Positions 14,741 to 19,177 of a DNA stretch of 64,000 nt are shown one piece after another. The notes under the pieces were generated by a model that was not told the origin of the DNA, did not search any database, and saw only the letters and a list, made by a program, of their open reading frames with translations. The translations under genes and the position numbers were made by a program. Numbering within the stretch: the first letter of the stretch is position 1; each line of letters begins with the position of its first letter. Source of the DNA: a bacterium HR28 (GTDB lineage: Bacteria > Chloroflexota > Chloroflexia > Thermomicrobiales > Thermomicrobiaceae); NCBI GenBank assembly GCA_002898255.1, contig BEIE01000001.1, positions 496,001 to 560,000 on the forward strand. The letters are read 5' to 3'.

Positions 14741-16954
14741 TCAGCGATCGAGTGGGACGGCCGGCGTGATGACAGGCGGTTCGACCGGCTCCGGCAGCGA
14801 GACGACATACGCAGTCCAGACGTCCGGTACCTGCAGGATCTCGTTCAGCGCGGCCTCCGGGATCGGGTCATCAACGTTCAGCACCATGATCGCCTCACCG
14901 CCTCGCTGACGCCGGCCGACCTGCATTCCTGCAATGTTCACGTCATACCGTCCAAGAATCGTCCCGATGCGGCCGATAATCCCCGGTCGATCCCGGTGGT
15001 GCGTGATGAGCATGTGGCCGGCGAGCGGTCGTTCGAGCGAGAAGCGATCGACCTCCATGATGCCAGCTGTCCGGTGATCCCAACGCACCATCACATGGTG
15101 TGGCGGATCGCCGTCGACCTCAAAGTTGAACTCTGGCACCGTGGAGGCTCCCGTATCGAACCGCACGTCGACAAAGAGGTGGAGCTCCTGAGCCACCAGT
15201 CGAGCATTGACTGGCGTCACACGGCGCACAGTCCAGCGGCGGAGCGCTGACGCCAGCGCAACTGCAGTCACATGCTCGGCGATATCCGGTGCCACCTGGC
15301 CATGCACTGTCACCTGGAATGTTGAGGGTCGCGACGGTTGCAAGACGGCAATCAAGTGTCCAGCAGCTTCCGCGACTTGGGTCAGTCGGAGGAGTTCGGG
15401 CGCATGGAGCGATGCAGCTGGCAAGTTGACTGCGTTCGGCACAATCTCACCGCGCAGCGCGGCTAGCGTCGTCGTGGCAATGATTTCCCCGACCGCCTCA
15501 AGTGCCTCACGGCTTGAGCCGCCGATATGTGGGGTGAGGACGACATTCGGCAGACCGAAAAGTGGGCTTTCGTACGCCGGTTCTTCTGGGAACACGTCCA
15601 CACCAGCCGCCGCGACATGGCCACTCTTGAGCGCTTCAGCCAAAGCATGGACGTCGACGACCTCACCACGGGCGCAGTTGATAACAATGGCCCCTCGCTT
15701 CAGGCGCGCGATCGCTCGCGCATCGAGCATATGGCGGGTCTCGGGCGTCGCCGGTACGTGAAAGGTGACGATATCACTGTGTTCAAGCAGCGTCTCGTAG
15801 TCCACCGGCTCGACGCCGAGCTGCGCAAAGCGCTCTCGGGTGACATAGGGGTCATACCCGAGTAGGCGCACCTCGAAGGCGCGCAATCGTTGTGCAACGA
15901 CGGAGCCGACCCGTCCGAGGCCGACAATGCCAACGGTCTTCCCCTTCAGGTCGAAAGGCCGGAACCGTTTACGCTCCCAGCGACCTGCGTGTGTGGTGGC
16001 GTTGGCCTCGATCAGGCACCGTGAGATGGCCAAGATAAGCGCGATTGTATGTTCCCCAGCTGATACTGCATTCGCCCCCGGGGCGTTGAGCACCAGGATC
16101 CCCGCCTCGGTTGCTGCCTGGAGGTCGATGTTGTCGACGCCGGTACCAGCCCGAGCAATGACTCGTAGCCGTGGCGCATGCGCCAGGAGCTCGCGAGTCA
16201 CCTGGGTTTCGCTACGGACGATCAACGCGTCGGCATCCCGTAGCGCAGCGTACAGCGCTTCTTTGTTCCGACCGTCCACATCGATAACGTCAGCCTCGGC
16301 GGCCAGCCGCTCGCGCGCCCGTTGGTCAATCACATCGCTCACCACGATGCGCCGTCGCCGCGGAGTTGTTCCGTCGCCGGACACGACAGGCAACGAAGCG
16401 CCCGCAAGGCGGAGGATCGCCTGGACTGCAGCGGTGAGATCGGGAACACGCACCACAAACGGCGACTCGCCAGCTGGGGCTGACTCATTTGTTAGGAGAA
16501 AGCAGGTGATGCCGGCCTCTGCGTATCGCGTTGCATGACGCAGGCTATCCTCAATCGCATGCGTCACGCCGAGTTCGCGGGCGGCTGCGACTTTGTCCTC
16601 AGTGAAGACAATCCGGCATGGCGGGAAACCATGACGCTGTAGCCATTCTTCGGTCGTGGCCCGTGAGCGATCCGGCCGTGCCGTGACGATGGCCACATGG
16701 TCGTTTCCTAATACCTGCAAGAGCTGGCGCAAAAGCTGCGGCGCATTTGGTGCTGGATCGAGCAACGCTGCCGGGCCACCCGGACCGTAGACCCAGAGCC
16801 GTACAGCCTCTGGGACGTTGCAGCCGTGCGAATCCACAAACGCGTGATCAGGAAGTTGCATACCGAGTGCCCGGTTGGCCGCCTGTGCGAGCGGCGCCGG
16901 ATGCTCGGTGAGGACACCGTCAAGATCGAGTGCGAGTCGAATGAGCCGTTCCAT
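14741..16954 (-). CDS. serA: Fusion of HAD-superfamily phosphatase and D-3-phosphoglycerate dehydrogenase
   Basis: 737 residues. Residues about 1-200 form a HAD domain of the 5'(3')-nucleotidase C type: LALDLDGVLTEHP (motif I), IVTARPDR (motif II), FTEDK and AIEDSLRHA (motifs III/IV). Residues about 210-737 are a complete long-form SerA: GLGRVGSVVAQRL (NAD fold), NCARGEVVD (catalytic Arg), FPEEPA (Glu), TPHIGGSS (His), an intervening domain and a C-terminal ACT domain (HRDRPGIIGRIGTILGRYDVNIAGM). It oxidises 3-phosphoglycerate in serine synthesis; the HAD domain could hydrolyse a phosphorylated metabolite, but its substrate is unknown. ATG 16954 follows GGAGGGG four bases away. A Ser/Gly-rich leader ORF overlaps its start. 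Confidence 0.93.
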   Translation of the reverse strand: MERLIRLALDLDGVLTEHPAPLAQAANRALGMQLPDHAFVDSHGCNVPEAVRLWVYGPGGPAALLDPAPNAPQLLRQLLQVLGNDHVAIVTARPDRSRATTEEWLQRHGFPPCRIVFTEDKVAAARELGVTHAIEDSLRHATRYAEAGITCFLLTNESAPAGESPFVVRVPDLTAAVQAILRLAGASLPVVSGDGTTPRRRRIVVSDVIDQRARERLAAEADVIDVDGRNKEALYAALRDADALIVRSETQVTRELLAHAPRLRVIARAGTGVDNIDLQAATEAGILVLNAPGANAVSAGEHTIALILAISRCLIEANATTHAGRWERKRFRPFDLKGKTVGIVGLGRVGSVVAQRLRAFEVRLLGYDPYVTRERFAQLGVEPVDYETLLEHSDIVTFHVPATPETRHMLDARAIARLKRGAIVINCARGEVVDVHALAEALKSGHVAAAGVDVFPEEPAYESPLFGLPNVVLTPHIGGSSREALEAVGEIIATTTLAALRGEIVPNAVNLPAASLHAPELLRLTQVAEAAGHLIAVLQPSRPSTFQVTVHGQVAPDIAEHVTAVALASALRRWTVRRVTPVNARLVAQELHLFVDVRFDTGASTVPEFNFEVDGDPPHHVMVRWDHRTAGIMEVDRFSLERPLAGHMLITHHRDRPGIIGRIGTILGRYDVNIAGMQVGRRQRGGEAIMVLNVDDPIPEAALNEILQVPDVWTAYVVSLPEPVEPPVITPAVPLDR

Positions 16955-17159
16955 TGTTCCCCTCCGGTTCACGTCTCATGACGTTGGACAGATACGCGAC
17001 GGTCGTTCCCCATCCAGCCGAACTGGATCCGGGACGACCGGAACCGGAGGGACTACTGGAGCCGCGACCGCTACCCGAACCGGAACCAGAACCGACCCCC
17101 ACCGCCGCGGTGCAGAAGGTGACGACGTGTCCGACTCGCGTGGTGGTGTACTGGTCCAT
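16920..17159 (-). CDS. Ser/Gly-rich leader ORF overlapping the serA start
   Basis: 79 codons beginning MDQYTTTRVGHVV, ATG at 17159, with AGGGAGG 11 bases upstream and a promoter just before it. Residues 21-49 contain 11 Gly and 12 Ser, using TCT, TCC, TCG, AGC and AGT codons, so several serine tRNAs are required. The ORF ends 35 bp inside serA, so its ribosomes pass over the serA ribosome site. I read it as a regulatory leader peptide, by analogy with his/trp/leu leaders, because the downstream enzyme makes Ser and hence Gly. Alternatively the GGTTCC-rich DNA is simply low complexity; the opposite strand is open too. Confidence 0.5.
   Translation of the reverse strand: MDQYTTTRVGHVVTFCTAAVGVGSGSGSGSGRGSSSPSGSGRPGSSSAGWGTTVAYLSNVMRREPEGNNGTAHSTRTRS
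16960..17051 (-). promoter_or_regulatory. Putative serA translational attenuator (SD-sequestering stem)
   Basis: In the transcript, CCCUCCGGUUC (17051-17041, leader codons 37-40) is perfectly complementary over 11 nt to GAACCGGAGGG (16970-16960), which contains the serA Shine-Dalgarno sequence. A second, 8-nt partner (17084-17077) lies in codons 26-28. A ribosome paused on the Ser/Gly tract would cover the 5' arm and free the serA site; without pausing the stem may re-form. Mechanism is inferred. Confidence 0.5.
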
Positions 17160-17220
17160 TGTTGCCACTACCTCCCTCGATTCGGGTCTCGGCGCGCTTC
17201 CGCCAACATGCACTCACTGT

Positions 17221-17248
17221 AGTATACGGCTGACGCCGACGGTGGCAA
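17221..17248 (-). promoter_or_regulatory. Promoter of the leader-serA transcript
   Basis: On the minus strand TTGCCA (17248-17243), 16-bp spacer, TATACT (17226-17221). The transcript would start near 17214, giving a ~55-nt untranslated stretch before the leader ATG at 17159 and ~260 nt before serA. Confidence 0.75.
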
Positions 17249-17470
17249 GAGCGACGTTTCGGGATTTCGGACAGAGTGGTTCAGCCCGTCGTGCTGTCTT
17301 TTCGCTGCGGTGGCGTAGTCCCAAGCTTGCTGCGCGATACGACTTGGGACGCTCTCCTGACCTCGGTTCTTGTGGTCGAGGCATCCTCCCTTGACGAACC
17401 AGAACGAACGCGTCAAAGTCTCTACCACAATCGAATCGACGACCTCGTCTTCGGCAGGGGAGGTGTCGTC

Positions 17471-19177
17471 GTGCCGGATTTCGACTACCAGACGGATGTG
17501 CTCATTGTCGGGACTGGTGGTGCGGGACTAGTTGGTGCACTCGTTGTCAAAGAGCATGGATTCGAGCCGCTGGTCATCGAGAAGACCAACGTCGTTGGTG
17601 GCACGACTGCCTGGTCCGGAGGCGGTCTCTGGATCCCCAACAATCCGGTGAGCCGAAGAGCCGGATTGCAAGACTCGTTTGAGGCGGCACTTCGGTATAT
17701 GGATGAGGTGATTGGTGATGTCGGGCCCGCGTCATCGCCTGCACGTCGACGCGCTTTCCTCGAGTACGGGCCGCAAATGGTCGAGTTTCTCGAGCGCTTA
17801 GGCTTCCGCTGGCGTCCTTCGTTGGGCTATCCAGACTACTATCCGGAGAAGCCTGGTGGCTCAACCTTTGGTCGCTCGATCGAGGGAGCGATTTTCGATG
17901 GGCGGTTGCTTGGGCCATGGTTGCCCCGTCTCCACCGCTATCCAAATGTTCCCAGCATACCCCTCTACACGAACGAGGCGTCCAAGTTCGCGCTTGTTCT
18001 CCGCACGCCGGCCGGCGCAGCGACTGTTGCGCGCGTCCTCTGGCGTCTTGTGTCCTATCGCCTGCGTAGTCGCGTCCCGCTGACACTTGGTGCCTCACTT
18101 GTCGGGCAGTTGCTGATGCTGTGTCTGCAACGGGGCATCCCTATCTGGCTCGAGAGTCCACTCGAGGACCTCCTCGTCGAGGAGGACCGGGTCGTCGGTG
18201 CCGTAGTCCGCCACCAGGGCCGCACGGTGCGAGTGCGAGCGCGTGGTGGCGTGCTCCTCGCTGCTGGTGGCTTCGCCCACAACCGGGAGATGCGGGAGCG
18301 CTATCATCCACACCCGATCACGACCGACTGGACAAGCGCCGCGCCGAGCGATACCGGCGACGCGATCCGTGCCGCACAGGCCATCGGTGCTGCCGTCGAT
18401 CTTCTCGATGATGCCTGGTGGGGACCGACGGCAATTCTGCCAAACGGTCGACCGCTCTTCATCCTGTGGGAGCGATCCTTCCCCTTTGGCATCATCGTCG
18501 ATTCCAGCGGCCAGCGTTTCATGAACGAGTCGGCTTCCTACGTCGACTGTGGGCATTGGCAGTACGAACGTCATCGCACGGTGCCGGCCATCCCTGCCTG
18601 GTTGATTATCGACTCCAAACATCGACGTTTTTACCCGTTTGGCTTTGTACCGCCGATCGTCACCCCGCGCTCTATGACTGGACCGCAATTCCTTGTCCGC
18701 GCCCAGACCTTGCGCGAGCTCGCTGCGCGCTGCGGTATCGATCCCGACGGGCTCGAGCGAACGGTCGAGCGCTTCAATCGCATGGCGATCGCTGGCAAGG
18801 ATGAGGATTTTCATCGTGGGGACAGCGCTTATGACCGCTACTATGGTGATCCGCGCGTGCGCCCCAACCCGAACTTGGGCCCCTTGGATCGACCGCCGTT
18901 CTACGCCACAGCGATCTATCCTGGGGACCTCGGTACGAAAGGAGGGCTGCTCACCGACGAGTGGGCGCGTGTTCTCCGTGAGGATGGTCGCCCGATACCT
19001 GGGCTCTATGCGGCTGGGAACACCACGGCCTCAGTCATGGGACGGACCTATCCCGGACCGGGATCGACGATCGGTCCAGCCTGCACCTTCGCCTACATTG
19101 GCATGCTTCATGCGGTGCGACAGCTGAGGGAGGCGTTCGCTCGCACTGAAGGGGAGCATCCCCGCGATGGGCACTAA
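17471..19177 (+). CDS. FAD-dependent dehydrogenase, 3-ketosteroid-delta1-dehydrogenase/fumarate reductase family
   Basis: 568 residues. VLIVGTGGAGLVGALVVKEHG is the FAD-binding fold, followed by VIEKTNVVGGTTAWSGGGLW, typical of KstD-like enzymes; near the C-terminus GLYAAGNTTASVMG and YPGPGSTIGPACTFAYIG are the second FAD segment of the group. KstD enzymes insert a double bond in ring A of 3-ketosteroids, but relatives act on other enones, and no steroid genes are nearby, so the substrate is open. GTG 17471 follows GGGGAGG seven bases away; the frame extends upstream to 17276 without support. Monocistronic. Confidence 0.85.
   Translation: MPDFDYQTDVLIVGTGGAGLVGALVVKEHGFEPLVIEKTNVVGGTTAWSGGGLWIPNNPVSRRAGLQDSFEAALRYMDEVIGDVGPASSPARRRAFLEYGPQMVEFLERLGFRWRPSLGYPDYYPEKPGGSTFGRSIEGAIFDGRLLGPWLPRLHRYPNVPSIPLYTNEASKFALVLRTPAGAATVARVLWRLVSYRLRSRVPLTLGASLVGQLLMLCLQRGIPIWLESPLEDLLVEEDRVVGAVVRHQGRTVRVRARGGVLLAAGGFAHNREMRERYHPHPITTDWTSAAPSDTGDAIRAAQAIGAAVDLLDDAWWGPTAILPNGRPLFILWERSFPFGIIVDSSGQRFMNESASYVDCGHWQYERHRTVPAIPAWLIIDSKHRRFYPFGFVPPIVTPRSMTGPQFLVRAQTLRELAARCGIDPDGLERTVERFNRMAIAGKDEDFHRGDSAYDRYYGDPRVRPNPNLGPLDRPPFYATAIYPGDLGTKGGLLTDEWARVLREDGRPIPGLYAAGNTTASVMGRTYPGPGSTIGPACTFAYIGMLHAVRQLREAFARTEGEHPRDGH

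Follow-up and report, generated by a model that had tools for sequence, protein, structure and literature searches.

We observed that the serA gene of bacterium HR28 is preceded by a short Ser-rich leader ORF that pairs with the serA Shine-Dalgarno (SD) site, and that a Ser-dense leader stands before the same gene throughout the family. Judged from sequence comparison, this leader is probably (about 0.72) a cis-acting translational attenuator of serA, which would read the level of charged tRNA-Ser. SerA catalyses the first committed step of serine synthesis. The DNA shows a promoter followed by a leader ORF that has a ribosome site of its own and contains a Ser tract; a stem joins this tract to the SD, and the ORF overlaps the serA start. 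The positions of these parts in the window (i.e. the whole stretch of 64,000 nucleotides that was analysed) are as follows.

17221..17248, minus strand: sigma-70-type promoter, TTGCCA-16-TATACT (promoter scan)
17171..17176, minus strand: ribosome-binding site GGGAGG of the leader ORF (direct reading of the sequence)
16920..17159, minus strand: leader ORF of 79 codons (79 aa), ATG at 17159, stop at 16920, with a counterpart in 19/19 readable family members
17013..17099, minus strand: Ser/Gly tract, codons 21-49, in which Ser is the conserved element
17040..17052, minus strand: 5' arm of the sequestering stem (anti-SD), within the Ser tract and immediately 3' of the SSS codons
17001..17039, minus strand: covarying hairpin enclosed by the stem
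16959..16972, minus strand: 3' arm of the stem, including the serA SD GGAGGGG
14741..16954, minus strand: serA, the putatively controlled gene, an N-terminal HAD-like phosphatase domain fused to phosphoglycerate dehydrogenase

The preliminary description had listed the promoter, the 79-codon ORF with its ribosome site, the Ser/Gly tract, an 11-nt complement to the SD and a 35-nt overlap with serA, and all of these were confirmed on the minus strand. The -35/-10 pair at 17248-17221 was the sole promoter-like site detected across 15000-19000. A -10-like TATACT or TATCAT lies 5' of the leader in 6/6 genera (g1 to g6), and the leader ATG is preceded by a purine-rich site in all of them. Ser or Gly accounts for 23/29 of the leader residues 21-49, with Ser codons of five kinds (TCT, TCC, TCG, AGT and AGC). 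The 11-nt stretch CCCTCCGGTTC (17051-17041) is the exact reverse complement of GAACCGGAGGG (16970-16960), which holds the serA SD, and the leader stop codon falls 35 nt within serA (start at 16954). No terminator-like site was seen on the minus strand from 17221 to 16900, and the stem has no following U-run; since no intrinsic terminator comes after the stem, control should act on translation initiation. The genome belongs to Thermomicrobium, its closest named relative being Thermomicrobium sp. CFH 73360 (serA identity 98%). A divergent FAD-binding_2 dehydrogenase gene (PF00890) occupies window positions 17276-19177 on the plus strand; its mechanically listed start is near the serA leader promoter, and its real start is probably further in, at about 17470.

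When serine is plentiful, ribosomes would clear the tract and the stem would form behind them, hiding the SD; ribosomes traversing the overlap may additionally occupy the serA start. When charged tRNA-Ser is short, a ribosome would slow at the Ser codons, cover the 5' arm and free the SD, and SerA would be made. Secondary Rho-dependent polarity is also possible. The preliminary description mentioned that the leader overlaps the serA start but made no use of it; this overlap is conserved and must enter any model, and it also permits translational coupling as a rival. In a more inclusive form of the attenuator, one family-wide Thermomicrobia leader ORF would carry both switch arms and run through the serA start, and serine would repress twice, by re-forming of the SD stem and by ribosome traffic over the start. 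We put this fuller form forward tentatively, as rather unlikely in its entirety.

Of 21 family genomes, 19 yielded the same HAD-serA gene, and the leader counts refer to these 19; from G004 (54% complete) and G017 (87% complete) we obtained paralogue-level matches only. A Ser-dense leader ORF was present upstream of the orthologous serA in all 19, in six genera. Examples of the tract are GSGSGSGSGRGSSSPSGSGRPGSSS in Thermomicrobium, WSSSSSRGSSSPSSSSSGS and WSSSSCRSSSSSSSS in g2, SASSSSGRGASSPSGSS in g3 (Thermalbibacter and relatives), GVSSPSSRGSGSSAGS in g4, GSSSMSRSRTSSKSSSSSSSRSS in g5 and VSSSSSRWSHSSSSTSSSS in g6. The signal had been proposed to be serine or glycine. As Gly is plentiful in the Thermomicrobium leaders only, and near-pure Ser runs are found in the other genera, serine is the common element; the serine half of that proposal was upheld and the glycine half was dropped. 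The number of Ser per 20 codons was 8-14 in all 19 leaders, against a background median of 4-5 and a 99th percentile of 9-10. Leader DNA identity between genera was 0.53-0.62, in comparison to 0.47-0.55 for shuffled sequence. Being near the shuffled level, this identity indicates that Ser density was retained during DNA drift. Within genera, single Ser residues were replaced as often as other residues in a site-wise test, so selection would act on density and not on individual sites. Alignment of the serA upstream regions, the check suggested in the preliminary description, thus showed that ORF, Ser tract and pairing are kept across genera despite this drift.

In other families of the same order (25 genomes) we found no comparable leader except in G028 (24 codons, 7 Ser) and G052 (about 8 Ser in 20), both of them borderline and isolated, as their relatives have neither. 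The G028 case (L026 / L125) is a lone 24-codon ORF, MVICLSSLSKRCSIEWWTGFSSSL, lying 5' of HAD-serA and followed by a hairpin, GGCCGAGGA...TCCTCCGGCC; it may be an independent Ser leader. More distant serA genes (L040-L109) were preceded by Ser-rich ORFs at chance level only. In five genomes, the surroundings of glyA and of class-V aminotransferase genes held no recognisable serine leader, and Ser-rich ORFs formed a scattered background there. No convincing Trp, His or Ile/Val/Leu leader was seen before trpE, hisG or ilvC in up to seven genomes.

We then turned to the stem between the Ser tract and the SD. Both arms of this 13-bp stem were invariant in six Thermomicrobium species, and the DNA between them diverges. 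The hairpin inside the stem covaries in these six species, with five pairs changed on both sides and 94.4% of cells paired; its covariation score was exceeded by 0/500 shuffles, and slid versions were paired to at most 52.5%. Comparison of Thermomicrobium with g3 and g4 showed both-sided changes at two pairs of the stem and none in slid controls, although this comparison has four distinct rows only and was matched by 135/500 shuffles. The leader-SD duplex has a predicted energy of about -25 to -29 kcal/mol in g1, g3 and g4, and the register of the arm is shifted in g2, g5 and g6. In 5/6 genera the leader paired best with the SD of its own genus. The pairing first noted as an 11-nt match therefore holds as a stem retained across genera, with compensatory changes in the stem-loop. 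Synonymous sites in Thermomicrobium and g3 were conserved more in the tract than in its flanks, as expected for RNA pairing under constraint.

We also compared the sequestration of the SD by each leader with that by codon-shuffled versions of the same leader. Sequestration was better in g3, g4 and g5 (matched by 0-1/60 shuffles) and in g1 (5/60), but no better in g2 (16-19/60) and g6 (44/60). The structural case is weakest here, with the shifted arm in g2, g5 and g6 and the lack of excess SD hiding in g2 and g6. The g2 leaders (L012 and L013) carry a second CTGGAG about 15 nt 5' of the serA SD (CTGGAGG), and the tract segments CTCCAG and CTTCCAG could each pair with either copy. The double CTGGAG may serve as a decoy or allow mutually exclusive pairing.

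The effect of a ribosome on the leader was modelled with a partition function at 60 C and a 31-nt ribosome mask (mask size and temperature were our choices). The ribosome-free SD had an unpaired probability of 0.00-0.22 in 18/19 leaders, and this value rose with a modelled ribosome on the Ser tract. With the ribosome on early codons the SD was predicted to stay closed; it opened for A-site positions in the conserved (G/A)SSP region and at the Ser codons that follow. In Thermomicrobium, the predicted exposure was partial (0.33-0.66) and did not set in until late positions of the tract, so a ribosome stalled at its first Ser codons would leave the SD closed. In g6, the ribosome-free SD was already half open (0.46). 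Circular-shift tests of Ser codons against exposure were mostly not significant for single leaders, and the weight of this modelled result is in its recurrence across genera, not in single leaders.

Together, we found what is expected of a leader-peptide attenuator: an ORF, ribosome site and promoter in six genera (transcription and translation in this genome being inferred from sequence), enrichment of end-product codons (Ser, in all 19 leaders), and a conserved, ribosome-dependent RNA structure, from covariation and the model, which is weak in g2 and g6. The serine-sensing translational attenuator proposed earlier is well supported by the conservation of ORF, Ser tract and pairing and by the compensatory changes, and it loses its glycine part; the response to serine itself is inferred.

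The same anatomy could, with the opposite sign, reflect translational coupling, in which leader ribosomes melt the stem to allow serA initiation and a shortage of Ser-tRNA would lower serA. In every leader measured, in all genera, the ORF extends across the SD and start codon of serA, always in one frame, and terminates 26-38 nt into that gene. Coupled genes usually show such an SD-hiding stem together with an upstream ORF that overlaps the next gene. By chance, the frame would stay open beyond the tract with a probability of about 0.3-0.66 per genus, or roughly 0.02 over six. However, the position of the stop may merely follow from the conserved serA DLDG codons read in the other frame. Coupling also leaves the dense Ser tract on the 5' arm without a reason, and a feed-forward response is unexpected in an end-product pathway. 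We consider coupling improbable, though it survives best among the rivals.

Codon use bears on the next rival, a static or temperature-responsive SD hairpin of which the Ser tract would be a by-product, TCC being the in-frame complement of the GGA of the SD. The hosts are thermophilic, the stem is strong in g1, g3 and g4, and TCC is enriched in the g1 and g3 leaders; because of this complementarity, part of the Ser content could derive from pairing. But many of the Ser codons beyond the arm are AGT, TCG, TCA and AGC, which are not complementary to the SD, and g2, g5 and g6 keep long Ser runs though their stem is weaker or shifted. These points make a mere hairpin quite unlikely. AGT makes up 0.22-0.40 of the Ser codons in the g1, g2, g3 and g6 leaders, in comparison to 0.01-0.06 in serA, and TCA makes up 0.55 in the g5 leaders, in comparison to 0.13 in other g5 genes. 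In Bacillus subtilis, UCN codons were slowed more than AGC/AGU under serine starvation (PMC3862929). If the attenuator reading is true, the enrichment of otherwise rare Ser codons (AGT, and TCA in g5) would offer a natural test of whether regulatory codons are chosen for sensitivity.

We also considered that the ORF encodes a small functional protein whose location before serA is incidental. The first 21 codons of the g5 leader gave pS 0.42 and pN 0.02 (pN/pS 0.05), a clear coding signature indicating that the leader is translated in g5. In g1-g3, on the other hand, the peptide has drifted, its N-terminal part giving pN/pS 0.6-1.1. The leader peptide has no match in Pfam, it overlaps serA out of frame, and the ORF precedes this serA in every readable family genome. 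A separate small protein is thus very unlikely. Residues 1-21 of the g5 leaders (L017 and L110-L112), MVRTMFLNSTAVAGLTPRMTT, are nearly invariant, which is beyond what an attenuator needs, and a nascent-chain role is possible for this segment.

In this genome by itself, the leader and its pairing are moderately unusual and constitute weak evidence. The 11-nt SD match recurred, for this window only, in 22/3000 codon-order shuffles and 481/3000 synonymous swaps (0.7-16%). Of ORFs of 50-110 aa, 0.3-1.4% have at least 10 Ser per 20 codons. The exact core GGCTCCAGTAGTCCC occurs in this genome in the serA copy only, and other copies are at control level. As the pairing and the Ser richness in a single genome are moderately improbable only, the case depends on the relatives. 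A low-complexity ORF with a fortuitous complement, which short Ser-rich ORFs, frequent in this G+C-rich DNA, and the matching swaps might suggest, is hardly credible given a leader kept in 19/19 genomes and six genera with DNA identity near that of shuffled sequence, and the covariation.

Leader-peptide attenuators are textbook knowledge for Trp, His, Leu, Ile/Val, Thr and Phe. We found no serine leader peptide in Rfam or the searched literature, which covered few subscription journals, and no leader-peptide attenuator described in Thermomicrobia in that literature. The nearest known design is the LEU element of Actinobacteria, upstream of leuA, in which consecutive leucine codons pair with the SD of leuA (PMC1262725). 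Both designs place a leader ORF before the first gene of the pathway, with a run of end-product codons that pairs with the SD of that gene, and neither has an obvious terminator. However, the LEU element concerns leucine and leuA, with a pseudoknot and a candidate protein regulator, whereas the serA leader concerns serine and serA, and has a long leader that overlaps the gene and a simple long stem enclosing a hairpin. Membership was rejected, since amino acid and gene differ and only the codon-run/SD pairing is shared; by this comparison the serA leader would work like the LEU element without belonging to it.

Other known systems share single traits with the serA leader. In classical transcription attenuators (trp, his, leu, thr and ilv; PMC1183508), slowing of the ribosome at end-product codons likewise refolds the leader RNA, but none of these senses serine, and the serA leader has no terminator or anti-terminator and would control translation initiation. 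A classical attenuator was rejected because no intrinsic terminator lies between leader and serA. In the translational attenuation of ermB/ermC and toiL, an upstream ORF pairs with the downstream ribosome-binding site and a stalled ribosome frees it, but these leaders sense antibiotics (PMC12121999), whereas the signal proposed here is uncharged tRNA-Ser; the serA leader would work like these too without being one of them. For serine, the RNA-level controls described so far are the Ser T-box and the serC element. A Ser T-box riboswitch controls serA of Paenibacillus polymyxa by tRNA-Ser charging; unlike the serA leader, it binds the tRNA directly and acts on transcription, without translation of a leader (PMC8002221). 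A Ser T-box was rejected, with no Rfam family reaching the gathering score in the window or at 20 related loci. In the serC element of alpha-proteobacteria (RF00517), a hairpin masks the ribosome site of an operon for the serine pathway, and this trait is shared with the serA leader; but the serC element is a short RNA with no leader peptide described, and its effector is not known (PMC1273637). It was also rejected, there being no Rfam match even at E up to 5. If the attenuator reading is true, the leader-peptide mechanism would gain an amino acid (serine) and a lineage (Thermomicrobia), and the codon-run/SD pairing of the actinobacterial LEU element would have arisen with other codons too. 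It would also provide a simple serine sensor from thermophiles that can be tested with reporters.

We also examined the N-terminal HAD-like domain of serA, of about 190 aa (window 16954-16382, minus strand). Its catalytic motifs (DLDGVLTE, TAR, K and ED) were invariant in 15 relatives. The predicted fold was confident (pLDDT 93) and structurally near AphA-type acid phosphatases, and SerB structures also matched. No canonical SerB was found at the NCBIfam cut-off in four family genomes. The HAD-like domain may be the missing phosphoserine phosphatase, and in that case both the first and the last step of serine synthesis could be under the control of the leader.
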